The notes under the pieces were generated by a model. It saw only the letters and a list, made by a program, of their open reading frames with translations, did no database searches and was not told where the DNA came from. This document shows positions 38,601 to 51,147 of a stretch of 64,000 bases of DNA, in pieces. The translations under genes and the position numbers were made by a program. Position 1 is the first letter of the stretch. Every line of letters begins with the position of its first letter. The stretch comes from Meiothermus cerbereus DSM 11376 (GTDB lineage: Bacteria > Deinococcota > Deinococci > Deinococcales > Thermaceae): NCBI RefSeq assembly GCF_000620065.1, contig NZ_JHVI01000008.1, forward strand, positions 62,001 through 126,000. The letters are read 5' to 3'.

Positions 38601-39191
38601 CCTCCCCGCCACGTCCAGCACAACTACCCCGCCCGTGAACCCATCCCATGGGGCTGCGGTAACAGTACCCGTCAGCGTGGCATCCAGGTACTGGGGCACG
38701 CGGATGACCTGCATGGTGCGGCGGAGGTTCTGGTTTGGCCGGTGGGCGTACGAATATTGTAAAGGAGAGGCTACCACAAGCTGGCTGTCCGTGCTTCCGG
38801 GGCCGGCGCGGACAAACTCGTAACGGCCCGCCTGGCACTCCCCAGGCGCGGAGGTGGTATAGCCGCTACCGCCCACGATTTGATCATTATTGCCGCCAGG
38901 CCCATCGCCGTAGTTGAGGCTGTCGGAGCTGTCAATGTCGGCACACTGCATCTGGATGATGAGGACCAGGTCTCCTGGGACCAAGCTCGGGGTCAGGTTC
39001 CCACGCTTGCCGGTTAGAGGGATGGTAGGAGTTGTGCCCGCCGAGTAGGTGGCGTTCGTGGCGTTAATCCGGTAGTAGGTGTTCACTGTGCCCGAGATGT
39101 TGGCGCTCCCGTCTCTGCCAGGAGAGGCACAGGCTCCCTGGGCTGAGGCACTGCCAAAGAGCAGCACAAGGGCTAGAAGGGCAAAAATCAT
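35658..39191 (-). CDS. Large exported glycine-rich protein with DUF11 and SdrD-B type repeats
   Basis: A 1177-residue secreted protein, last in the surface operon. Residues 1-17 are a signal peptide ending in ASAQ. An extended Gly-rich region follows (about 280-500). A DUF11 repeat starts near 547 (ALAKASTDVNGSPLQLGDILEYTLTVNN). Two SdrD-B type units follow (about 670-860; GQVYHDRQPNGAKDAEDW and GRVFYDDGEGGGNANNALQD). A last DUF11 unit lies near 1057-1177. No LPxTG or SLH anchor is seen. The start overlaps the preceding gene's stop (ATGA). Probably cell-surface associated; its role is unknown. Confidence 0.75.
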   Translation of the reverse strand: MIFALLALVLLFGSASAQGACASPGRDGSANISGTVNTYYRINATNATYSAGTTPTIPLTGKRGNLTPSLVPGDLVLIIQMQCADIDSSDSLNYGDGPGGNNDQIVGGSGYTTSAPGECQAGRYEFVRAGPGSTDSQLVVASPLQYSYAHRPNQNLRRTMQVIRVPQYLDATLTGTVTAAPWDGFTGGVVVLDVAGRLNLNGQSVNVDGLGFRGGGARARASDDPRERFAWATDNRHGTKGEGIAGTPRFVSEKRDLGSGGTTVTDLGSTWAGYPGGDFARGAPGNAGGGGTYWNSTSDNGGGGGGGNGGPGGRGGAGWRAAGYTGINPDYGNLTEKKWGFGGSRFAEASIARLVMGGGGGAGDNNNNSDPGLSSGGAGGGIILLRAGRLTGAGTLSARGARAPDNPLNDGAGGGGAGGSVLVFAGSHDSLSLTINAQGGRGGNAWWSTASGVVPHGPGGGGGGGVVVRNVPATVDVSGGLPGATRNNTSGVDQNPRDAGTHPEHPSTTTIGPHGARAGSLGQNISFASYTDDSPGQNAGYRCATPTLALAKASTDVNGSPLQLGDILEYTLTVNNTGSGYGVNVQLQDPIPPGTTFVSGSLQLVSGLAPSSLTYNSTANRVEASWASFPPGQSAIIRFRVQVGAGPAVTNTATVTYTDLLNRSYPPSQGTVTDSVLVSYTISGQVYHDRQPNGAKDAEDWSDGATVYVKLVQGTTVLAVQTVSAGSGAYSFSGVAPGSYTLVLDNNASTADTTPTPPSGWLFINPAGGSRSVTVSSTNVLSQDFGLFHGFRVEGRVFYDDGEGGGNANNALQDGGERGVGSVSLTAGDGSSTRTATTDGSGFYRLYIPASFGSVTLSHPIRPATGRNDGSVASQVASWADATSLTSSGAVVSLGSAATLAGATYVRNFGVVRPSLLSPDQSGQATSPGVITYAHQFRPGTLGNVTLSLAPTQFGYQVRRDVNCDGDFDDAGEGFQGLPLSFSVDATWPRQPDGSLRGCGLEVQVIVPAGVSAGQVDLAPFALSLTWASNPAVVESRSLTDTTTVIRGGELRLTKQARNHTKNTPFASSAQGRPGEVLEYRIEYQNIGSQPIFNVILFDPVPFFTTLVQNAYGGSGEVELVCPNGTVVRPDLGPVSNLSLNLAALCTLSTAPLPGGGSAPALLPGQGGFFVYRVQVN

Positions 39192-42100
39192 CGGCTACCT
39201 CCGAAGATGTCCAGGCGCAGGTAGAGGCCGGGGGCGGTGTCGGGGGTGAGGCCCACGAAGCCGCCGAAGGTGTAGCCCAGGTTGAACCACAGCCCTTCCA
39301 CCACCCGCAGACTGGCTTCCAGCGAGAAGGCCGTGGCGCTGCTGTTGGTGCCGGGTTGGAGCTGGTGGTAGGCGGCGGCCCCCAGGCCCAGCCAGTCGGT
39401 GAAGTAGTAGTTGGCGCCCAGGCCTAGCTGGTAGGTGTGGCCGGCGGGGTCGCTTAGCTTGAGGCGGTAGGCCAGGCTGGGGCGAAGCTGGAAGGCGAGG
39501 CCCGGGTGGTAGCTGGTGGCCAGGGCGCCCTCGAGGGTGGCCTCAGGCCCGCTCTGCAGACGGTGGTAGGTCAGGAGCGATACCTCGCGCCCGCGCAGGG
39601 CGTAGGCCAGGGTAAAGCGGCCCTCGAGGGTGGGGGCCACCTGGTAGTTGGCGTCCAGCGAGAGGGTTTGCTGCTCGTCGAGCTGCCCGGTAGCCCCGGC
39701 CCGCAGCACCAGCTTGGGCTGGCTGCCCAGGGCGGTCTCGGCCCCCAGGGTGGCGCTGAAGGCTTCGGTCTGGTAGCGCAGGGCCAGCCCAAAGGCGGCC
39801 TGGCTGCTGCCGGTGGCGAAGCTCTGCTCTAAGCCGGCGCTGGCGTTCAGGCTCCAGCGCTCGTCGAGGGGCAGGGGGGCCTCGAGGCCAAAGCGGGCCC
39901 GGTTGCCCTCGCCCGCTGCGCCCGGCAGTTGATAGGAAAGGGCCAGGTTGGCCCCGCCCAGCTTTTGCTTCAGCCCCAGGCTGCCCGAGAAGCCTAGACC
40001 CCAGGTCTGGACCAGGTCGGCCTCGGCGGAGAGGTTGGCGTCGAAGGCCAAGGTGGCCCGCAGGCGGGTGGAGGCCATCTGGGTCAGGCTGAAGGGCTGG
40101 GCGTGGGTCAGCTCGCTGTTGAGGGCGCCGCTACTGAGGCCCAGGCGCCCCAGGGCCGCCAGCGAGGCGGTCTCCCAGGTGTAGCCCAGCCCGCCCCCTA
40201 CCGAGAAGGCGGGGACGATCCCCCTCGGGACAGAGCCCTCACGGGCCTGTTCACCCGGGAGGAAGAGACGGCGGGTGTAGAGCAGGCCGGTACGGTTGGC
40301 CTCGCCGGTCTGGTGTTCCAGGGAGATGCGGTCGGCTTCGCTGAGGCTGTAGGCCACCTGGGCCTGGCCCTGGAGCTTGCCCTCGTAGGTCAGGTTGGCG
40401 CTGGACTCGAGCGGGCCGTTTTTGCCGGAGAGCTCGAGGCCCAGCCGCTCGGCCGTCCCTCGGCTGTAGGTGGCCCGCAGGCCAAAGCCGGGCTGCTGAT
40501 AGAGGGCCTCGGCCCCATAGCGCCAGCCACTGCCCGGCAGGTAGGCCGCTCCGGCGCCAATGCTGAAGTAGCCCAGCTTAAAGCGGGCCCCCGCCCCATA
40601 ACCCAGGTCGCGGGTTCCGCCCAGGGGGGCGTAGGTGACCTCGAGGCGCACCGGCTGGAAGTCGGGGGCGCTGGGCCAGAGGGGCCGGGAGAGGGTCAGG
40701 GTGCCGCTGGCAGCGTCCAGCACGTAGTCCTTAAGGCGCTCGAGGCGGGTTTGGCTGGCCCCAACCAGGAGCAGTACCTGCTCGCTGCCGGGTTCGGCAG
40801 GCCCGGAGAGCTTATAGAAGCGGGTGCCGTCGGGCACGATCACTTCGGTTTTGCTGCTGGCAGGCAGCCAGCCCGCAAAGCCTTGCAGGGTCAGGTCGCC
40901 GCGGGTTTCCAGGCGCAAAGCCGTGCCCTGGGGCAGTCCACTTAGGCCAAAGACGCCGAGCTGGTCGGCAAAGTAGCCGATGCTGAAGCCTTCCTGGTCG
41001 TAGCGCAGGGCCAGCGGGTCATCCGAGCGGAGGGGCAGCGTGGCTTCCCGGCCCGAGCCCGTTAGGGGGAAGCGTCCGGTGGGGTCGGGCAGCTCGCGCA
41101 GGCCGGTTTCTACCTGGGGCTGGCCCTGGTTGAAGCGGAGCGAGCCGTCCAGCGCCGCCCGCAAGGTTCCGCTGGCAAAGGGGCTTTCCAGGTAGCCCCG
41201 TCCCAGGCCAAACACCTGGAGGCTCTCGCCCAACTGCAGGCCCACGCTGCCCTGGAACTGCCATAGCTGGGTCTGGCGGCCCAGCACGAAGAACTCGGCC
41301 TGTTCCTTTATCTCCCCAAAGGTCAGCCGCAGGCGCAGTGGGGTGGGGGTGGCGGTGGGCTTGAAGCGCAGCCGGGCTACACCGTCTTGTAGGAGCACCT
41401 GATACCCCGACAACAGCGGGAAAGCGTCCGGTTCCAGGGGTTCGCCGGAGGTTTCTACCGTGAGCGGGCCGAAGCCCGAGGCCAGGCCCAGCCCGTCCAC
41501 CGCCCGCACCTCTAGCTCCAGCGGGGTGCGGCCATCGGCCAGGAGGCGCACCGGGCGTACCTCCAGGAGGGTGGGGTTACCGGCCAGGAAGACCTCCACC
41601 CGATCCGAGCCCAGCGCGGTCTGTACTTCGATCAGGTTGCGGCCCGGCTGCAAGGGCAGGCCGTAGTACTCCAGGCGCTGAAAGCCGGCCTGGGTGTCGT
41701 AGGTGGCCTGACCAAGGTTTTTGGAGTCTACTTCCTGGCCGTTCAGGGTGAGGCGAACCTCGAGGCCGTAGGGGGCCTGCAGCACCACCCGCGCCTTGTC
41801 CGCGCGGAAAAGGGTGCCGGGCAGGGGCTCCTGGATAAAGCCATCGCGCTGCTGGCTGATGATCGGTCGGGCTTTCTCCAGATCGGCAAAGCGTTGCTGG
41901 CCTTGCAGATAGACTTCCCGGTCGCCCACCTGGAGGGTCAGGGTGGGCTGGGCCAGCGGGCCCAGGGCCTCGCGGTGGCGCAGCTGGTAGGTGAGCTGCC
42001 CAGAGAAACCCTTGCTGCCTGGGCGATCCGCCACAAGCCGCACGGGAGGATGCCGCTCCTCCAACGCCACCCGCGCGCCTGGTAGCTCGAAGAAGAGGCG

Positions 42101-44800
42101 GCCCTGGTCGTCAATGCGCGGGTCGGGCAGGGGGCGGCCATCCAGCTGGGCTGAACCAGGCTCATAGGTCGCGCCTTCGGGGGGTAGGTGGGTAAGCAGC
42201 AGGCGGTCGTACTGGGCAATGTTTTCAACGGAAAAATCCAGGGTGACGGTGGAAAGCCGGTAGGGCTCCAGCACGGGCAGGGCCAGCAGGGTGGCTTTGG
42301 CGGGGAAGGCGGCAGGGGTGCCGTTCACAAAGACGGTGATCTGGTTGTCGAGTGCCCCCGCCCGCAGGGCCTCGGCCTCGAGCCGCAGCTCGCGCACCTC
42401 CCCGGCCTGCAGGGTGAGGCGCAGCCGCTCGGTGGTCTGCATCTGGAGGCCCTCGCCGGGCGACTCTTGTAGCTCAAGGGTTACCGGGTGGTCGGTGGGG
42501 TTACCCACCCGGATGATAAACACCGCTGGGTTGCCCACCACCACCCGCGCTGGCTCAGCGGTTTTTTCCAGGCGCAGCAGGGTGCGCCTTAGGGTATCGG
42601 GCGCGCTAGGACTGCCTCCGTTGGACACCACCTGAGCCAGGAAAGCCCCCTCGGCAGGGGCGCCAAAGCGTACTTTGGCCCGGTAGGTGTGGGTGAGGCT
42701 TTCGCCCGGGGGCAGCGTGCCGCTGAACGCTGGGGTCTGGGCCACCTCGAGCCACTCGGGGTAGGTGTCCTGCAGGGTGTAGCTCAGGGGGGCCTGGCCG
42801 CTGTTGCGTACCACCAGGCGCACCTCCACCTCCTCCCCGGGCACCACCATGCGCTTGTCCAGCGAGCGCGAGAGCTCGGCCACCGGACGCAGCACCGCTA
42901 CCTGGGCCTGGGCCTCGCGCAGGGTCTGGCCGCCCTCGCCCAAGAGGCGGGCGGTGTTGACCAGCACCGAGGGGGCCTCGAAGCTCACCCGGGCCCGCAC
43001 TTCGAAGGTTTGCGCTGCACCTGCCGCCAGCTCAACAACCTGATCCAGCGCCTGCCCTTGCAGTCCGGGGGCCAGGTTGTCCTGGAGGCGCACCCGGCCC
43101 GGTTCGTCGCCGGTGTTTGCTACCCGCAGGCGCCAGACGGCCTCGCTGCCCACCGCGGCGCTTGGGGTGAGGGCTTCTTTGTGCAGGGTGAAGGTGGCGG
43201 GCTGGACAATCTTCAGTAGGGCTTGAGCTTGCTGTGCCCAGGGGCTCAGGGTGGCGGTGACCAGGGGCTCGGCCTTGCACAGGGCCCTGGCCCGCACCTG
43301 CAACACCGCCTCGCGGCCCTGGGCGATGGGCGAAACCAGGCGGGGGGCCTCGAGGGCTTCCAAACAAGGGGGTAGATCAAGCTCCAGATCGGCGGGCAGC
43401 AGGCGGGTAAAATCGGTGCTGGCCCGGGCCACCAGGGTGGTTTCCTCCCCTACCCGCAGGGTGTTGGGGCTGGCTGCCAGGGTGAGCTTGACCTCGGGAT
43501 AAACCCTGAAACGCACCTTCTGGGTCTTGCCTTCTTGTAGCACCACCGACCCCGGCCCTTCCACACGGGCCCCGCTAAGCACCGGTGCAAGGCTATAGGA
43601 GCCTGCCTCCAGGCTCACTCGAGCCTGTCCCTGGCTTAGCGAAATGGCCTGCTCACCTACCCGTATAGGTAAATCAATGGGCCGCTCGCCGTCCGGCAGC
43701 ACCAGCACGGCCTCCAGTTCCAGTTGGGCGGGCAGGACGGTGACGGGCGGAGACGCCAGCCGCTCCAGAATGTACCGGGCGCTACCCCCGCCGCAGCCGA
43801 AACGGGCTGAGATTTCATCTAGGTACTCGCCGCCCTCTACCTCCAGCCGCACCAGGCGGTAGCCCTCCGGCAGGGTGGATAGCCGCACAATGCGGACTTT
43901 GTCGCCCTCGAGGGCGATGGGCACTTCCAGGGGCCGGCCCTCTACATCCACCGCGCTTGCGCTAACGGGCCGGGGGGCCACCACCCGGAAGGCCTCTCGC
44001 CCGACCTCCATACAGGCGTCCACGCGAAAGCCGATGGTGTTGGAGTACTGGCGGGCGGTTTTGGGCTGGCGGAAGCCAAAGGTAATCTGCCCTGGCTGGC
44101 GAATGTCGTAGTAGGCCCATTCGCGGTCGCCAGAGACATTGCGCGATTTGATGCGCCCGTCCGGGAGGCGCACCCGGCCTTCCATTTCCTGGGCTCCGTC
44201 CTCGTCGTAGAAGCCTACGCGTAGGGGCAGCGCCTCGGGGCTCACATTGAGCAAAAAGGGCTCCTGCCAGTCCTTGCCGCGGATGTTGCTGTACGAGGCC
44301 GAGCGCACATCATAAATCTGCAAAGTGGGGTCTATCAGCAGTTCGGCAGCCTGGGGCACGCTGGTCTGGATGCGGTAGAGGAAAGCATTTTTGCCCAACC
44401 CCAGCAGGCGGCTCTTGATCAGGTAAATGCCAGGCTGAACCTCGCCCCGAAAGAAGAGCACCCAGCGGTGGGGCTCTACCCCGAAGCGCTCTTCGGCCAG
44501 TACCCGACCATCCCGCAGCAGCGCGAACTCCGCGACGAGTTCGCCTTTTCCCTTGTCGTAGCGCTCGTCGCCCAGCTCTTCCTTTCCCTTGAGGGCGCTG
44601 CGGTAATCGTTGGGGTCGAAGCCAGGGGAGTAGATTTGCAGGTTCAGGAGGGTGGGTTTGTGTACTACAATGCTGGCCTGCAACTCCTGAATTTCCCAGC
44701 CGAGCTGGTCTCCGGGCACAATACCTTTCAGATCTGTGCGGGCCTGGCCCAGTGCCAGGCCAGCCAGTAGGCAGATCCAAAACCAGAGTGGGCGCATCAC
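39188..44800 (-). CDS. Very large DUF11-repeat protein with a C-terminal outer-membrane beta-barrel
   Basis: An 1870-residue exported protein. Signal peptide 1-20; N-terminal beta domains to about 500; DUF11-type units near 537, 647 and 743 (for example SLDKRMVVPGEEVEVRLVVR); an Ig/invasin-like part near 1120-1240; the motif YVLDAASGTLTLSRPL near 1360; then about 480 residues (1390-1870) of short alternating amphipathic strands rich in Gly, Tyr and Leu, as in outer-membrane barrels. It would sit in the outer membrane with its long N-terminal part on one face. Overlaps both neighbours by 4 bases. Whether it exports the other proteins of the operon is unknown. Confidence 0.75.
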   Translation of the reverse strand: MMRPLWFWICLLAGLALGQARTDLKGIVPGDQLGWEIQELQASIVVHKPTLLNLQIYSPGFDPNDYRSALKGKEELGDERYDKGKGELVAEFALLRDGRVLAEERFGVEPHRWVLFFRGEVQPGIYLIKSRLLGLGKNAFLYRIQTSVPQAAELLIDPTLQIYDVRSASYSNIRGKDWQEPFLLNVSPEALPLRVGFYDEDGAQEMEGRVRLPDGRIKSRNVSGDREWAYYDIRQPGQITFGFRQPKTARQYSNTIGFRVDACMEVGREAFRVVAPRPVSASAVDVEGRPLEVPIALEGDKVRIVRLSTLPEGYRLVRLEVEGGEYLDEISARFGCGGGSARYILERLASPPVTVLPAQLELEAVLVLPDGERPIDLPIRVGEQAISLSQGQARVSLEAGSYSLAPVLSGARVEGPGSVVLQEGKTQKVRFRVYPEVKLTLAASPNTLRVGEETTLVARASTDFTRLLPADLELDLPPCLEALEAPRLVSPIAQGREAVLQVRARALCKAEPLVTATLSPWAQQAQALLKIVQPATFTLHKEALTPSAAVGSEAVWRLRVANTGDEPGRVRLQDNLAPGLQGQALDQVVELAAGAAQTFEVRARVSFEAPSVLVNTARLLGEGGQTLREAQAQVAVLRPVAELSRSLDKRMVVPGEEVEVRLVVRNSGQAPLSYTLQDTYPEWLEVAQTPAFSGTLPPGESLTHTYRAKVRFGAPAEGAFLAQVVSNGGSPSAPDTLRRTLLRLEKTAEPARVVVGNPAVFIIRVGNPTDHPVTLELQESPGEGLQMQTTERLRLTLQAGEVRELRLEAEALRAGALDNQITVFVNGTPAAFPAKATLLALPVLEPYRLSTVTLDFSVENIAQYDRLLLTHLPPEGATYEPGSAQLDGRPLPDPRIDDQGRLFFELPGARVALEERHPPVRLVADRPGSKGFSGQLTYQLRHREALGPLAQPTLTLQVGDREVYLQGQQRFADLEKARPIISQQRDGFIQEPLPGTLFRADKARVVLQAPYGLEVRLTLNGQEVDSKNLGQATYDTQAGFQRLEYYGLPLQPGRNLIEVQTALGSDRVEVFLAGNPTLLEVRPVRLLADGRTPLELEVRAVDGLGLASGFGPLTVETSGEPLEPDAFPLLSGYQVLLQDGVARLRFKPTATPTPLRLRLTFGEIKEQAEFFVLGRQTQLWQFQGSVGLQLGESLQVFGLGRGYLESPFASGTLRAALDGSLRFNQGQPQVETGLRELPDPTGRFPLTGSGREATLPLRSDDPLALRYDQEGFSIGYFADQLGVFGLSGLPQGTALRLETRGDLTLQGFAGWLPASSKTEVIVPDGTRFYKLSGPAEPGSEQVLLLVGASQTRLERLKDYVLDAASGTLTLSRPLWPSAPDFQPVRLEVTYAPLGGTRDLGYGAGARFKLGYFSIGAGAAYLPGSGWRYGAEALYQQPGFGLRATYSRGTAERLGLELSGKNGPLESSANLTYEGKLQGQAQVAYSLSEADRISLEHQTGEANRTGLLYTRRLFLPGEQAREGSVPRGIVPAFSVGGGLGYTWETASLAALGRLGLSSGALNSELTHAQPFSLTQMASTRLRATLAFDANLSAEADLVQTWGLGFSGSLGLKQKLGGANLALSYQLPGAAGEGNRARFGLEAPLPLDERWSLNASAGLEQSFATGSSQAAFGLALRYQTEAFSATLGAETALGSQPKLVLRAGATGQLDEQQTLSLDANYQVAPTLEGRFTLAYALRGREVSLLTYHRLQSGPEATLEGALATSYHPGLAFQLRPSLAYRLKLSDPAGHTYQLGLGANYYFTDWLGLGAAAYHQLQPGTNSSATAFSLEASLRVVEGLWFNLGYTFGGFVGLTPDTAPGLYLRLDIFGGSR

Positions 44801-47442
44801 GGGTACCTCCAGCGCACCTGCGGGTCGGTCAGGTGGCCACCCGGCAGGTCGTAGGTGAGGGTCTCGCGACCCTGGAAGCGCTCAAACCGGAAAACCCGTT
44901 CGCCCCCGCCGGGCAGGGGATCGGTCAGGGTCAGCTCGGGCAGGGCTTCGCTCGAGCTGAGCGTCAGCACCACCCGTATCCCGCCCGGCAGTGGCAGCAG
45001 TTTTTTCTCGACCCGCAAGGGGCCAAACTCCAGGGTGGTCTCGCGTACGGCCTGGGCCAGGCCTCTAGGGTGCTCGAGGGGGAAGTCGCTTACGGTCAGG
45101 CCCTCCACCCGCACCCGGTGCCGGTAGCCATCCCCCTGAGCTTCGGGGTGGGGGAGGGGCGGGAAGGGGGCCGAGGCCGGATCCAGCATCACCTCAAACA
45201 ATCCTCCGGCCAGGTTGCGGAAGCTGTAGCGGCCTTCGGCATCGGTCAGGGTCTGCAGGCCGTTGCTCAGCACCACCCGCGCGCCCGGCAGCGGCAGGTC
45301 GAGGCCAGCGGTATAGCGGCCATCGCGGTCGGTGTCCAGGAAGACCCGGCCCAAGAGGCTATGGGGCGGGGTGAAGACCCCCTGCTGCAACTGCACCACC
45401 GCTGAGGCCACCGCACTGGCTACCGCGGCGTTGCCACCACTGCTGCCAGTGGCCTGGGCGGTATTTCGCAGCTCACGGCCTGCCCCGGCCCCAATGCGCA
45501 TCTTGTAGCTAAACACTGCGCGACTACCGGGAGCAAGGGTCACGTTTTCCCAGGTAAGCTGGTTTCCTTGTAAAACCGGCTCGCTGGGGCTGGCGCTGCC
45601 CGGCACATAGATCAGGCCGGCCCCGGGGGTGTCCTCGAGGCGCACCGTGAGGGCCACCTGGCCCACGTTCACCAACGTCAGGGTGTAGGTCAGCAGATCG
45701 CCCACGCTGGCCCGTGCGGGCTGCACCTGCTTTTCCAGGAGCAGCATGGTGGCCTGTACGCGCAGGGTTACTGTATTGGAAAACAGCGGGTTGCTGAAGT
45801 CGCTGCCGCGCAGGCTAAAGCGGTTTGCGATGATGGCTGTGTTGATAGCGCCAGCAGCTACGCGGGCCTCCAGGGTCAGGGTGCGGGTGCTGCTCGCAGC
45901 CAGGATCAGGTTCCAGCGCACCGTGCGGCTCGAGGGGGTATAGCTACCGCCATCCGAAGCTGAGACGAACTCGAGGTTGGCGTCCAGCACATCCTCCACC
46001 ACGACGTTGCTAAATGAGACAGGCAGGGGGTTTTCGATTTCCAGGGTGTAGACTACCCGCTCACCAGGGGTTACCTCGGGACCTACGCGGCTGCTCTTGC
46101 GCAGGGTAATCAAGGAAGGATTCAGAATCTGCGTCACCTGGTCGAGGGTGGGGTCGGTGCTGCCGGTAGCGCCTGAGCGGGCCAGCAGGGTAACGGTGAA
46201 GGGAGTGGTGCTTGCAGCTATCCCGGACAGGCAGGCCTGAAAGTTAAGGTCTGCCCCTGGGGGAAGGCTGGCAGGAAGGGAGAGGATGCCACCACCCAGC
46301 GAACGGAAGTTCAGGCTGACCCCGCTGGGCAGCCCTGTTGCCTCCAAAGTGTAGGCATCGGGGGCGTTGCCTGTATTGCGCAGGGTGTGGCTAAAGCAGT
46401 ATATCTGTCCGGCCAGCACCTGGGCGCTCTGCTGGTCGTCTGGGCCCACCGCCTGGGGGTTGTTCAGGGGCCCCAGGGCGTGGGCATACTGGGCTGCAAG
46501 TCGGATCTCGACGGTTGCTTGCGCGTCGTTGCTGGCCGACGAGACCGTCACCAGGTTGCGCCGGGGGCCCGGCGTGGTGCCTGTACCCACCCGCATCCGG
46601 AAGCTCAAAAGCGCCTCCTCGCCGGACTCGAGGCCATCCAACACCAGCCGGATGCCCCGCACCTGGGCCTGGCTGCTGCTCCAGGTGCTGCCGTCGCTGT
46701 ACTCGAGGCGGCCCTTGGCTGCGCTGGCCGAGCCCACCACATAGCTCAGGTCGCGCAGTTCGGGGGTGTCCAGCATGTCGGTTACGTAAATGGGCCCTTC
46801 GGCCCGGGCGTTGCCCAGGTTCCACACCCGGATGCTAAAGCCCACTTCCTGGCCTTCGCGAACCAGGGAGGTGTCCGCCGACTTCACCACGTTCAGCGCA
46901 GCTCCGCTGCCAATACTGATCCGACTAAAGTTGTCGTCGTCTCGTCTTCCATCGGGACAGGTGGCCACCGGGCTGATATACAGGTCGCCAGAAGCCGAGG
47001 GCGGGGTTTGCAGGGCTAAAATCAGCCGGATTTCCTGATCGGCTGCCAGCGTTACGCTGTTCAGCTCGGCTTCACCCGGATCCAGCCTGCCGTTGGCGTT
47101 GACATCGTGATAAAACCGCACCGCGCTCGGTGCCCAGGGCGCACTGTTTTGCACCCAGCCCAGCGTGAAGGGAAAGCTCTGGTTGCCGCTATTGCGCAGC
47201 AAGTAGGCAAAGTAAACAAACCCACCCGCCGGTACAACCGCGTACTGGGCGGGGCTGCCAACGCTGCCGTTGGGGGTTAGGGCGGGCACACACACCGCCT
47301 GTACCACCGTTTCAACCACATTAGATAGATATGTCTCTCCATTTACAAATGCCAGGGCCTGGTTGCGAATGACCGTGCCGGCAGGAGCGGCGAAAGCTAG
47401 GTTTAGTAACAGCGCCAATGCCAGGCTCCACCCGATTCGCAT
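44797..47442 (-). CDS. Exported DUF11-repeat surface protein
   Basis: An 881-residue protein from the chosen start. MRIGWSLALALLLNLAFAAPAG is a signal peptide, which decides for ATG 47442; earlier in-frame starts (47493, 47502, 47583) would put 17-47 residues before it. DUF11 units lie near residues 184, 447 and 567 (NVVKSADTSLVREGQEVGFSI, LRKSSRVGPEVTPGERVVYTL, LEKQVQPARASVGDLLTYTL) and an SdrD-B unit near 697 (GRVFLDTDRDGRYTAGLDLP). It follows the 898-residue gene after a 192-base gap that contains a hairpin, and overlaps the barrel gene by 4 bases. Confidence 0.75.
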   Translation of the reverse strand: MRIGWSLALALLLNLAFAAPAGTVIRNQALAFVNGETYLSNVVETVVQAVCVPALTPNGSVGSPAQYAVVPAGGFVYFAYLLRNSGNQSFPFTLGWVQNSAPWAPSAVRFYHDVNANGRLDPGEAELNSVTLAADQEIRLILALQTPPSASGDLYISPVATCPDGRRDDDNFSRISIGSGAALNVVKSADTSLVREGQEVGFSIRVWNLGNARAEGPIYVTDMLDTPELRDLSYVVGSASAAKGRLEYSDGSTWSSSQAQVRGIRLVLDGLESGEEALLSFRMRVGTGTTPGPRRNLVTVSSASNDAQATVEIRLAAQYAHALGPLNNPQAVGPDDQQSAQVLAGQIYCFSHTLRNTGNAPDAYTLEATGLPSGVSLNFRSLGGGILSLPASLPPGADLNFQACLSGIAASTTPFTVTLLARSGATGSTDPTLDQVTQILNPSLITLRKSSRVGPEVTPGERVVYTLEIENPLPVSFSNVVVEDVLDANLEFVSASDGGSYTPSSRTVRWNLILAASSTRTLTLEARVAAGAINTAIIANRFSLRGSDFSNPLFSNTVTLRVQATMLLLEKQVQPARASVGDLLTYTLTLVNVGQVALTVRLEDTPGAGLIYVPGSASPSEPVLQGNQLTWENVTLAPGSRAVFSYKMRIGAGAGRELRNTAQATGSSGGNAAVASAVASAVVQLQQGVFTPPHSLLGRVFLDTDRDGRYTAGLDLPLPGARVVLSNGLQTLTDAEGRYSFRNLAGGLFEVMLDPASAPFPPLPHPEAQGDGYRHRVRVEGLTVSDFPLEHPRGLAQAVRETTLEFGPLRVEKKLLPLPGGIRVVLTLSSSEALPELTLTDPLPGGGERVFRFERFQGRETLTYDLPGGHLTDPQVRWRYP

Positions 47443-47601
47443 TCCGACATACAGCTGTGCAGCTAATTTAGATTGAAATGGTAAGACTGGCATACGCTTC
47501 ATCCGATGTTGTAGCAAGGTTGTGAAAAATTTGTGCGAGAGCCTACGCTTGTCCCGTACAGGCCTAATCGTAAACTCTCGCACAGCGTTTTATAGGTTAT
47601 T

Positions 47602-47626
47602 TCCCACCCCCCAAATGGGGGTGGGA
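47602..47626 (-). terminator. Hairpin between the first and second large surface-protein genes
   Basis: TCCCACCCCC and GGGGGTGGGA pair (10 bp) around a 5-base loop, 9 bases after the stop codon at 47635. There is no T-run on either strand, so it may be a partial terminator or a processing/stability hairpin that lowers expression of downstream genes. Confidence 0.5.
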
Positions 47627-47634
47627 TTAGGAAC

Positions 47635-50331
47635 TTACTGAACCTGCACGCGGAAGGTGATGGTGATGGTCGCCGAGGGCGGCATCACATCAGCGCTGGT
47701 GATGTTGGTGTCGCCGTTGGTGTCCACCGCCACGTAAATCGAGCTGCCCGCGCTCAAGGTGGTGGGGGCGGTGGCGCTCCAGGTGGTGCCGTTGGTGGAG
47801 TACAGCACCGTGCCGCCGGTAAAGCCGCTGATGGTGGCGCTGACGCTCACAAAGTTGGTGTACGACGGCAGCGGGTCGGTGATCACCACCTGCGTCAGGT
47901 TACCCGTCCCGATGTTGCTGGCCACCACGATGTACTCGATCACATCGCCGGGGAGGGCAGTGGCGGCGTTGGCATCGCGCACGGTGGTGCTGCTGCCCAC
48001 GTAGCTCACGCCGCTCTTGGTCAGGCGCAGGTCGCCGCCCACCACGGTGGTGGTTTCCGAGGCGGTGTCGGTTGCGGTGGCGCTGCCCACGGTGCAGGTG
48101 GCCGTGACGGTGTTAACATCGGTGCGCCCGATGGGTTGTCCGGCGGGGGTCAGCACCCGCACGTAAATGGTCTGACTACCGCCGTTGGCCGCTACCGAGA
48201 CCCCGCTCAGGCTGGCGCTCCAGGTGCTGCCGTCCAGCGAGTACTGGTAGGTCCAGCCGTGGCTACCACCATCTCCACTGATGTTGCAGGTGGCACCAGT
48301 GTTGGAGTTGTTGGTCAGGGTGTGGGTGTACTGGATGGTGCCCGGGCTGGTCACGGTGCCCGAGAGATCGGGATCCAAAGCGATCTGTGCCACCAGGTTC
48401 ACGTCCACTGCGCCCAAAATGGTGTCGCTCACACTGCCCAGGGTGGTGCTGGTTACGATGAACTGCACGTTGTCGCTGGTACCCGCCGTTACATCCACTG
48501 GCGCAGCACCAGTGGGCACCTGCACGGCAGCGATGAAGCAGGCGGTGGCACTTGCGCTAATGAGACCGGTGTTGGTAACCGGTGAGGGGGTGGGGGTGTC
48601 CATTACGCCGTTGCAGTCCGCGTCGGGGTAGAAGACCACTGTCCAGCCAGCGGGCAACGAGGCCGAAAGGGTGTAGCTATCCGGGTTAGCCCCGGTGTTG
48701 CTGACCTCGAAGGGGAAGTAGGCCACACCGCCGGGGTTGACCGCGGGGTTGTAGCCAGGGCGGGTGTCGTTGGCGGGGTCGGCCCCCTCGCCGCCGGATG
48801 CACCGTTGGTGTTGTGGGCAGCATCTACGCTATAGCCCGAGACCACTGTGGTAACAGCCAAGGTAGTGGCGTCTACCCCGTCGAGCAAGGTGGCTACGCT
48901 ACCGCTGGGGTTGTTCACCGAGGTGGCGGTCAGGGTCACGCTGCCGCCAGTGGTCTGGCTGGCCGGGATAGCGCAGCGCACCACCACATTGTAGGTCGCG
49001 CCAGCAGCCAGTGGGCCCACCGGGCCAGAGAGCGGGGTCACACCGTCGGACTGGTAGACGCTGCAGGTACCGATGGTGCTGGGGCCCAGGCTCAGGGTGA
49101 AGCTATCCGGAGCATTGCCGGTGTTTTGCAGGGTGGAGTTGAAGGTTACGGTGCTGCCCGAGAAAGCCGAGGCCAGGGTCTGGGTATCGGCCCCATCCAC
49201 CGCGCTGGCGCCGGTGCCGCCGATGGCCACGCTGTAGCGGCTGGCGGTGGTGTTGGTGGTGGTATTGGAGGTGACGCTCTGGTTTGCGGTGCCGTTGTTG
49301 AACAGCACAGTTGCGCTGTTGGAGTAGGTGGTGCCGGCAGGCGAGGCAGCCGGTACGGTGGCCTGGAAGCTAAAGGTATAGGAGGCGGTCTGGGGGAAGA
49401 AGGCGCCGCTTCCGCTGATGAACATACCCACCGCAATGGTGCCGTTGCCGGTGAGGGGCAGGTTACCGGAGGCCAGGGGGGCCCAGGTGGTGCCGTCGGT
49501 ACTGAAGACCATCTGCACAGTGCCCGCACCCGCGCTGCCGGTGGGCATGGTGCTCACTACCAGGCCGCTCGGGATGGTGTCACGGATCAAAATCCCGCTG
49601 CCCGTAAGCCCGCTCACGCTCACGCCACTGGCCGCGCTGCCGCCCACATTCGAGCCGCTGATGGTGTAGGTGATGGCGCTGCCAGGGTTCACGCTACCGG
49701 CGGGGCTGGCCGACTTGGTGGCAGTGAGGGCAGCGGCGGTGGTGGCGATGGCCCGGGCCCAGTTGTTGGTGTCGGTTACGCTGGGGTTGCCTGCCGAGGT
49801 GCCGCTCAGGTTGAGGTTGCCAAACTGGCCGTTGGTGGCCGAGGCCGGGATGGTTCCGGTCACAATCACGCAGGCGCTGGCTCCAGGGGTGCCCTGGCGG
49901 GTCAGGGTGACGCTGGTGATGGGAGCGGTCTCGCCAGGGTCGAGGGTGCCGTTGCAGTTGGCATCGAGGTAAATGGCCGTGCTGCTCAGGTCGAAGTTGT
50001 CCCCAGTGTCCTGGACGGTGGTCAGGTTGATGGTATCTGTGCCGTTACCGGTATTGCTGACCGTGTAGGTGAAATAGACGGGGGCGCCAGCGAGGGCGCT
50101 GCGGGTCTGGCCTGGGGCGGCCTGGGTGCCATCGGGCGTGATGCTGAAGCTGTAGACCTGTTGCACCACGGTGATGACCTGGTTGGAAGTGGTGGTGCGG
50201 GCCTGACCGGCGGAGTCGATGTAGCTGGCCGAGGCCTGGTTGGAGATGTTGGTGCCAGCGGGGGTCTGCTGAGCCATCACGGCTCCGAACAGGATCAGCG
50301 CTGCAACCAACAGGGCGAAGAGTTTATTCAT
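47635..50331 (-). CDS. Exported Thr/Ser/Gly-rich DUF11-repeat surface protein
   Basis: An 898-residue protein with a signal peptide (MNKLFALLVAALILFGAVMAQ). Composition is strikingly rich in Thr, Ser, Gly, Ala and Asn, with few charged residues, as in abundant surface-layer or fibre proteins. DUF11-like units occur near 207 (TATKSASPAGSVNPGSAITYTI) and 767 (LRLTKSGVSYVGSSTT), with related NTGNGTDTINL and NTGNAPDSFTL segments between. It starts 16 bases after the small first gene and has GGAGG before the ATG. The following hairpin may make it the main product of the operon. Confidence 0.78.
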   Translation of the reverse strand: MNKLFALLVAALILFGAVMAQQTPAGTNISNQASASYIDSAGQARTTTSNQVITVVQQVYSFSITPDGTQAAPGQTRSALAGAPVYFTYTVSNTGNGTDTINLTTVQDTGDNFDLSSTAIYLDANCNGTLDPGETAPITSVTLTRQGTPGASACVIVTGTIPASATNGQFGNLNLSGTSAGNPSVTDTNNWARAIATTAAALTATKSASPAGSVNPGSAITYTISGSNVGGSAASGVSVSGLTGSGILIRDTIPSGLVVSTMPTGSAGAGTVQMVFSTDGTTWAPLASGNLPLTGNGTIAVGMFISGSGAFFPQTASYTFSFQATVPAASPAGTTYSNSATVLFNNGTANQSVTSNTTTNTTASRYSVAIGGTGASAVDGADTQTLASAFSGSTVTFNSTLQNTGNAPDSFTLSLGPSTIGTCSVYQSDGVTPLSGPVGPLAAGATYNVVVRCAIPASQTTGGSVTLTATSVNNPSGSVATLLDGVDATTLAVTTVVSGYSVDAAHNTNGASGGEGADPANDTRPGYNPAVNPGGVAYFPFEVSNTGANPDSYTLSASLPAGWTVVFYPDADCNGVMDTPTPSPVTNTGLISASATACFIAAVQVPTGAAPVDVTAGTSDNVQFIVTSTTLGSVSDTILGAVDVNLVAQIALDPDLSGTVTSPGTIQYTHTLTNNSNTGATCNISGDGGSHGWTYQYSLDGSTWSASLSGVSVAANGGSQTIYVRVLTPAGQPIGRTDVNTVTATCTVGSATATDTASETTTVVGGDLRLTKSGVSYVGSSTTVRDANAATALPGDVIEYIVVASNIGTGNLTQVVITDPLPSYTNFVSVSATISGFTGGTVLYSTNGTTWSATAPTTLSAGSSIYVAVDTNGDTNITSADVMPPSATITITFRVQVQ

Positions 50332-50347
50332 TACTTATTTCCTCCTT

Positions 50348-50866
50348 TTATCGAACGATGGTACGAAGTTTGAGCATGACGGTTTGCCTAGCACCCATCT
50401 GGGGCAGAACCCAGCGGGCGTGGGTGAATTCTTCGGGTTTTACTTCCACTTCCTTCTCGACCTCCTTGCCGTTTTCCATGACCTTGACCTTGCGCTTCAG
50501 GGGGAGTTTGCCGTAGGTGCGTCCCCCATCGAAGCTGAACTCTGCAATAACCAGGGTGTCGCCCAGCTGTAGGGGCTGAGCGCTCGAGGGCTGATAGGCC
50601 GTGCTGGCAGGAATGGGGATGACCAGCGCGACCTGACGAAGCACTGTATCTGTGGTGTTCTGCGCGGTGAGCTGGTACTCGACCACCTCTCCTGGCTTGG
50701 CCTCTATGGCGGGCTCGAGCCGCTCGATGGTGCGATTCTGCTCCTGTACGCTAACCACCCGAAAAGCCTTCAGGTCCAGCTTGATGCTGCCTGTCTGGGC
50801 CAGCGCCCACCCGGCCAGGAAGATCCCTAGCAGAAGCAGCATTTTTGGCCTCATGTGTTTTTGCAT
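50348..50866 (-). CDS. Small exported DUF11-like protein, first gene of the surface operon
   Basis: A 172-residue protein. The signal peptide (MRPKMLLLLGIFLAGWALAQ, preceded by MQKH) is followed by one DUF11-type beta domain (ERLEPAIEAKPGEVVEYQLTAQNTTDTVLRQVALVIPIP) and a charged segment (KRKVKVMENGKEVEKEVEVKPEE). ATG 50866 has GAGGAG 7 bases upstream, directly after the T-run of a terminator hairpin; the longer upstream frame has no signal. Being first and short, it could be a chaperone or anchoring subunit for the large proteins; that is inference. Confidence 0.75.
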   Translation of the reverse strand: MQKHMRPKMLLLLGIFLAGWALAQTGSIKLDLKAFRVVSVQEQNRTIERLEPAIEAKPGEVVEYQLTAQNTTDTVLRQVALVIPIPASTAYQPSSAQPLQLGDTLVIAEFSFDGGRTYGKLPLKRKVKVMENGKEVEKEVEVKPEEFTHARWVLPQMGARQTVMLKLRTIVR

Positions 50867-50879
50867 TCCCAATCTCCTC

Positions 50880-50958
50880 AAAAAAAATGACCGGCCCATA
50901 GAGCCGGTCGCGCCACTGACTCCCTCCCGACCCCTGGCGCCCGTATTGGGTCTGGGAG
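50880..50958 (-). promoter_or_regulatory. Attenuator-like leader of the surface-protein operon
   Basis: On the minus strand GACCGGC / GCCGGTC (50889-50909) is followed by A and eight T, an intrinsic terminator that abuts the GAGGAG ribosome binding site. Upstream, CTCCC(A)GACCC can pair with GGGTCGGGAG (50924-50933 with 50948-50958), and GCGCCA with TGGCGC (50910-50915 with 50935-50940). The last two pairings overlap and cannot form together. A further hairpin lies at 50962-50985. Confidence 0.6.
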
Positions 50959-51147
50959 TTCTAAGTCTCTCAAGGTGAGAGCTTAACCTAAACTTTTGCA
51001 GAGGCTGTGCAAAATAAACATCATCTATTCCGTGAAACCATCCCGCGACCTTTAGAAGCACCGTACCAGACTTTATCCATGCACGTAACGCCCCCTCCAT
51101 ATACCCCAGGGGGGTAGGATGGCCCGCTGGGTACGGCGGGTGAGCGC

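Follow-up and report, generated by a model that had tools for sequence, protein, structure and literature searches.

A probable transcription-terminating ON riboswitch of the c-di-GMP-II superfamily ahead of a DUF11 surface-protein operon in Meiothermus cerbereus

The window, which is the whole stretch of 64,000 nucleotides from Meiothermus cerbereus DSM 11376 that was analyzed (contig NZ_JHVI01000008.1, positions 62,001 to 126,000), carries an operon for surface proteins on its minus strand. The genes are the following.

50348..50866, minus strand: first gene, 172 aa, secreted as judged by eye; no Pfam family, and a DUF11-type repeat just below the NCBIfam cut-off
47635..50331, minus strand: gene for an 898-aa DUF11-repeat surface protein
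44797..47583, minus strand: gene for a 928-aa DUF11/DUF7507 surface protein
39188..44800, minus strand: gene for an 1870-aa DUF11-type surface protein

The leader of this operon, read from 50979 to 50864 on the minus strand, consists in order of an aptamer, a terminator hairpin, eight T residues, GAGGAG, and ATG. The aptamer was identified by a cmscan search of the whole window, which matched RF03169 (the c-di-GMP-II-GAG riboswitch aptamer) at 57.1 bits (E 1.1e-8) against a curated cut-off of 40; the only other match above its cut-off was a tRNA. The original prediction, made from the letters alone, had recognized no known riboswitch consensus here, and this match overturns it on that point. 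RF03169 was found in none of 14 control genomes, and a search for the leader in plasmids returned nothing. An anti-hemB reading of the leader was rejected, scoring 17.0 bits against a cut-off of 49.5. The minimum free energy of the leader gave a z score of −2.96, with none of 200 shuffles as low. The elements of the leader, all on the minus strand, are as follows.

50980..50985, minus strand: candidate −10 element TAAGCT (TANNNT, in the same place in 4/4 orthologous leaders by eye; a lead only)
50893..50979, minus strand: c-di-GMP-II-type riboswitch aptamer (RF03169 match)
50969..50975, minus strand: P1 5' strand CCTTGAG, partner 50903-50897 (Rfam alignment; weak in the window copy)
50965..50967, minus strand: P2 5' strand, partner 50920-50918 (Rfam alignment and covariation)
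50924..50958, minus strand: P3 hairpin, 10-bp stem with arms 50958-50954/50928-50924 and 50952-50948/50933-50929 and one bulged A
50947-50934, minus strand: P3 loop, containing GCGCCA
50943, minus strand: ligand-contact position 37, C and not U (alignment; contact list for 3Q3Z in PMC7288161)
50935..50940, minus strand: P4 pseudoknot 5' strand GCGCCA, within the P3 loop (Rfam alignment and covariation)
50910..50915, minus strand: P4 pseudoknot 3' strand TGGCGC (Rfam alignment and covariation)
50909, minus strand: ligand-contact position 69, G and not A (alignment; same contact list)
50889..50909, minus strand: intrinsic terminator hairpin, its 5' arm being the ligand-binding/P1 3' strand (−16.7 kcal/mol)
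50880..50887, minus strand: U-tract of the terminator, 8 T
50874..50879, minus strand: ribosome binding site GAGGAG, invariant in four orthologous leaders
50866-50864, minus strand: start codon ATG of the first gene

Helices P1, P2, and P3 and the pseudoknot of the c-di-GMP-II class are all present. The 10-bp stem that the original prediction had drawn at 50958-50924 proved to be P3, interrupted by one bulged A, and its complementarity between GCGCCA (50940-50935) and TGGCGC (50915-50910) corresponds to the pseudoknot P4, in which, from the Rfam alignment read on the window, the P3 loop pairs with the strand preceding the conserved GACCG. The two pairings had been proposed to compete for overlapping bases. 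This was rejected because they have no base in common and are compatible within one fold.

The conservation of these stems, suggested earlier as a check, was borne out by an alignment (A1) of 91 of 152 distinct aptamers. Of its cells, 91.2% were paired, and double changes were observed in 17 of 24 pairs; sliding the partners by 1 to 3 columns reduced the pairing to 33 to 40%. P3 (helix 3) was paired in 98.0% of cells, with double changes in all 5 counted pairs, P2 in 97.1%, and the P4 pseudoknot (helix 6) in 89.2%, with double changes in two pairs. P1 (helix 1) covaries and, among the helices counted, was paired least (81.8%). In the window copy, the conserved core letters are present and P3 and the pseudoknot are intact, while the outer pairs of P1 fail in the Rfam alignment.

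An intrinsic terminator whose eight T residues directly abut the first ribosome binding site was confirmed (stem 50909-50889, T 50887-50880, GAGGAG 50879-50874). The stem has nine pairs, seven of them G-C, and a TAT loop. The pattern alone was not above chance, with 1 found and 1.9 expected from shuffled sequence; the evidence for the terminator is its conservation in the orthologues. The genus provided four orthologous leaders (that of the window, G000, and those of G030, G038, and G043), in all of which the T run is followed at once by GAGGAG. The strand CGACCGGCTC, which serves both the aptamer and the terminator, is invariant in the four, and changes in the opposite (3') arm of the terminator preserve the pairing (folded pieces, −16.7 to −20.0 kcal/mol).

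Position 69, which doubles as the first base of the stem, lies in the 5' terminator arm, GACCGGCUC (50909-50901), together with C71, C72, G73, and the greater part of the P1 3' strand. Since this arm is shared, the bound aptamer and the terminator would be mutually exclusive. The true exclusive pair is thus the terminator on one side and the pseudoknot with the P1 3' strand on the other, which would make the leader a transcription switch turned on by ligand. The terminator arm is part of the predicted ligand-bound aptamer and lies ahead of the first gene, an arrangement expected of an ON riboswitch with an intrinsic terminator. The earlier proposal of a riboswitch or attenuator before the surface operon was accordingly retained as to the riboswitch, supported by the Rfam match, the covariation, and the aptamer-terminator overlap; the exclusive stems that it had named were not.

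The following mechanism is proposed. When no ligand is present, the nascent GACCGGCUC would pair with GGGCCGGUC to form the terminator, and RNA polymerase would stop at the U-tract just ahead of the ribosome binding site. When ligand is present, the pseudoknot (P4 with G38/G39-C72/C71) and P1 would hold the same strand, no terminator would form, and the DUF11 surface-protein operon would be transcribed. The ligand is most likely c-di-GMP, for whose sensing C37 and G69 would take the place of U37 and A69; a high c-di-GMP level would then turn on the surface proteins. We consider it probable that the leader is such a transcription-terminating ON riboswitch, a C37/G69 form of the c-di-GMP-II superfamily with c-di-GMP as its most likely ligand.

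Should TAAGCT be the −10 element, which is offered as a lead only, transcription would start at the 5' end of the aptamer. A −35 element was not recognized beside it, and a sigma-70 scan reported neither TAAGCT nor any other promoter upstream of the aptamer on the minus strand. An additional hairpin, AAGCTCTC...GAGAGACTT at 50984-50961 (minus strand), occurs in the window copy only and, if transcribed, could sequester the 5' strands of P1 and P2; with TAAGCT as the −10 element, its 5' arm (50984-50977) would stay untranscribed. About 30 nt before the aptamer, at 51020-51006 (minus strand), lies a motif like TGTTTATTTTGCACA, a possible activator site; by eye, the remaining three orthologous leaders have a similar motif, as do some leaders that lack a riboswitch.

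Homologues of the 172-aa protein were found in 37 of the 50 genomes of the bacterial family, and from these matches 30 family loci were read. The aptamer was present upstream in 4 of the 30, always in the C37/G69 (C/G) form, and outside the family in 1 of 8 (G021), in the U37/A69 (U/A) form. It was absent from 33 of the 38 upstream regions read (30 within the family and 8 outside), and the operon therefore does not need it. The leader of G021, from another family, has the same order of aptamer, terminator, and Shine-Dalgarno sequence and the same terminator overlap (−20.2 kcal/mol). It precedes a gene pair (168 aa and 898 aa) whose products are 41% and 47% identical to those of the window. The same aptamer-terminator anatomy hence recurs in the four leaders of the genus and in one homologous leader of another family. 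This distribution would fit loss of the aptamer from most copies of the operon as well as two separate gains.

The two letters that set the window copy apart are positions 37 and 69. U37 and A69 are listed among the c-di-GMP contacts of 3Q3Z in PMC7288161; in the window copy these letters are C and G. Both forms occur in the genome, once each, the second copy being canonical (U37/A69; G000:C25:25458-25543, equal to L003:5459-5544). This second copy lies before a gene for an S8 subtilase lipoprotein, after which come an open reading frame matching Cas7 and a GAF-GGDEF protein. RF03169 was matched in at least 74 of the 111 genomes of the phylum. Among the matches listed, 161 aptamers of the phylum (149 best matches of the phylum-wide RF03169 search, the 2 own copies, and 10 further ones, all read from one alignment) divided into 112 U/A and 49 C/G with no mixed case, and columns 37 and 69 were the only ones that fully separated the two groups. 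The missing G-U at pair 37/69 was tried as a sign of ligand constraint and was dropped, as two ordinary pseudoknot pairs likewise show no G-U. For the 152 distinct aptamers among the matches listed, a tree built without columns 37 and 69 required at least 8 changes of form, compared with a mean of 38 and a minimum of 31 for shuffled labels (200 draws), although an RNA so short resolves little.

Rfam already contains the aptamer family together with its variants, and the window copy was compared with three of these entries. It shares with RF03169 the P1-P2-P3-pseudoknot architecture, C37, G69, and a score over the cut-off (the second copy scored 49.7 bits). The Rfam names GAG and GCG presumably refer to positions 67-69. 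On that understanding, the signature of RF03169 would be GAG with U40-A68, whereas the window has G67, C68, and G69 with G40-C68. By score the window copy thus passes as RF03169, while its letters 67-69 are GCG and fit the name of RF03170 (c-di-GMP-II-GCG), for which it falls below the cut-off (40.3 bits, and 35.6 for the second copy, against 47.9). With the canonical family RF01786 (PDB 3Q3Z) it shares the fold and most core letters, differing in C37/G69 for U37/A69, and it scored 45.3 bits against a cut-off of 53.5, which the second copy, a member, exceeded (64.0). The c-di-GMP-II variants were reportedly defined by Weinberg et al. (2017, PNAS). The open-access literature searched yielded no data on ligand binding by the C37/G69 form.

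A scan of named genomes, whose pattern demands G69 and so says nothing about A69, was read for 80 of at least 120 stretches and gave 85 matches (70 with the 5' half found and 15 without). At least 45 copies combined GAG with CGGT; these came chiefly from Actinomycetota, and two from an Anaerolinea record. At least 18 copies, chiefly from Deinococcota and Rubrobacter, combined GCG with CGGG. Among the matches listed, L206 and L243 combine T37 with G69 and look like real exceptions outside Deinococcota. Other off-pattern loci were L200 (CGGC), L224 (AGGT), and L262 (TGGA); L246 reads CGGT by eye, and L248 looks like chance.

The ligand was approached through the genes for its synthesis. The genome gave 15 GGDEF matches, 13 of which have Asp at the candidate key site (11 by script and 2 by eye), the other two being too divergent to read there. 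We take this site to be the equivalent of PleD D344, where a Ser would suggest a c-AMP-GMP maker. No DAC or SMODS match was found in the genome. c-di-GMP is therefore the only cyclic dinucleotide for which a maker was found in it. c-di-AMP was set aside as unlikely in this genome, since DAC went unmatched there but was matched in 11 of the 14 control genomes. The presence of GGDEF was dropped as a discriminator, being found in 111 of 111 genomes.

The main alternative keeps the same switch and changes its ligand: the C37/G69 form would sense another (cyclic or linear) dinucleotide, so that two RNA-sensed signals run in parallel. The strict division of the 161 aptamers listed and the coexistence of both forms in this and other genomes speak for it. 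Divergent clusters, found in 7 genomes of family f4, each combine both forms, whereas all 19 one-strand clusters are U/A. The expression platforms also differ, and the first start codon lay within 40 nt in 28 of 38 C/G leaders and 14 of 81 U/A leaders (of 49 and 112, respectively; crude gene calls of our own). The divergent pairs and different platforms favor a second ligand or another affinity, but the aptamer copies are related by descent, so the cluster and distance counts are not independent, and the divergent pairs all fall within one family. Some gene families follow one form only, and those confined to C/G, among them DUF4388 together with GTPase and Roadblock proteins, favor another ligand; several other families follow both forms (for example, 31 U/A and 8 C/G, or 10 U/A and 11 C/G). 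Variants of c-di-GMP-I riboswitches that sense c-AMP-GMP exist and offer a precedent, as a few contact letters are altered in a c-di-GMP aptamer and the variants occur mixed with the parent class (PMC7266159). They belong to an unrelated aptamer class, for which the change of ligand, hypothetical here, was shown. Homologous operons, that of the window included, stand behind either form, which favors c-di-GMP for both, and DAC, SMODS, or a Ser-type GGDEF was not found in the genome. Another ligand was therefore considered rather unlikely, and c-di-GMP distinctly the more probable for the C37/G69 form.

Two further readings would dispense with ligand sensing. A ligand-free attenuator or plain terminator, with the aptamer a decayed, nonbinding relic, would agree with the lack of an aptamer ahead of 33 of the 38 homologues whose upstream regions were read, with the weak P1, and with the window-only hairpin that could sequester the 5' strands of P1 and P2. 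We consider it very unlikely given the retained core letters, the intact P3 and pseudoknot, and, in the four orthologues, the invariant overlap strand and the co-changing terminator arm. Chance palindromes, with an ordinary terminator at the 3' end of the regulator gene upstream and an operon promoter inside the leader, would accord with the chance-level count of terminator-like sites and with the empty sigma-70 scan upstream of the aptamer. The Rfam E value, the covariation of the aptamer helices, and the terminator conserved directly before the Shine-Dalgarno sequence in four orthologues make this the least credible explanation. Against the c-di-GMP-responsive ON switch stand its two contact letters, unlike those of the c-di-GMP-binding form, and its score below the canonical Rfam cut-off. 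It would be strange for interchangeable sensors to coexist in one genome, to stand divergently in 7 family-f4 genomes, and to use different platforms. The window copy has a weak P1, and the scan recognized no promoter.

Other observations concern the surroundings of these riboswitches. In G009, G010, G011, G012, G016, G017, and G021, divergent operons share an upstream region with back-to-back C/G and U/A riboswitches. Of 37 f4 leaders, both forms included, 34 have a palindrome, CCCC-N1..8-GGGG (often CCCCCAAATGGGGG), in the 200 bp upstream (shuffled mean, 2.7); examples are G010, G011, G012, G016, G017, and G021, and in the C/G leaders it lies mostly 41 to 66 nt before the aptamer. Its tight form was present at only 8 places in genome G011, compared with 1 for a control pattern, and was not above control in other genomes. 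The palindrome resembles an operator for a shared transcription factor. A looser form lies in the window at approximately 51104-51114, and CCCCCAAATGGGGG is found at 47608-47621, between genes two and three of the surface operon. At L044 and L039 (f4 genomes), C/G riboswitches precede genes for DUF4388, GTPase, and Roadblock/LC7 proteins, a combination reminiscent of motility or polarity modules.

The analysis puts a name to the sensor by which a large surface-protein operon of this genome is probably controlled. With one copy of each form, the genome offers a natural test of swapping two ligand-contact letters, and the same operon is found behind each form in two bacterial families. Such pairs bear on whether the Rfam variants GAG and GCG still read c-di-GMP or another messenger. 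It is conceivable, if doubtful, that positions 37 and 69 are a two-letter specificity code in which C37/G69 reads a second signal molecule; in Deinococcota, both signals would then feed into genes for the surface and possibly for motility, and in some genomes they would do so from a single divergent promoter region with both kinds of aptamer.
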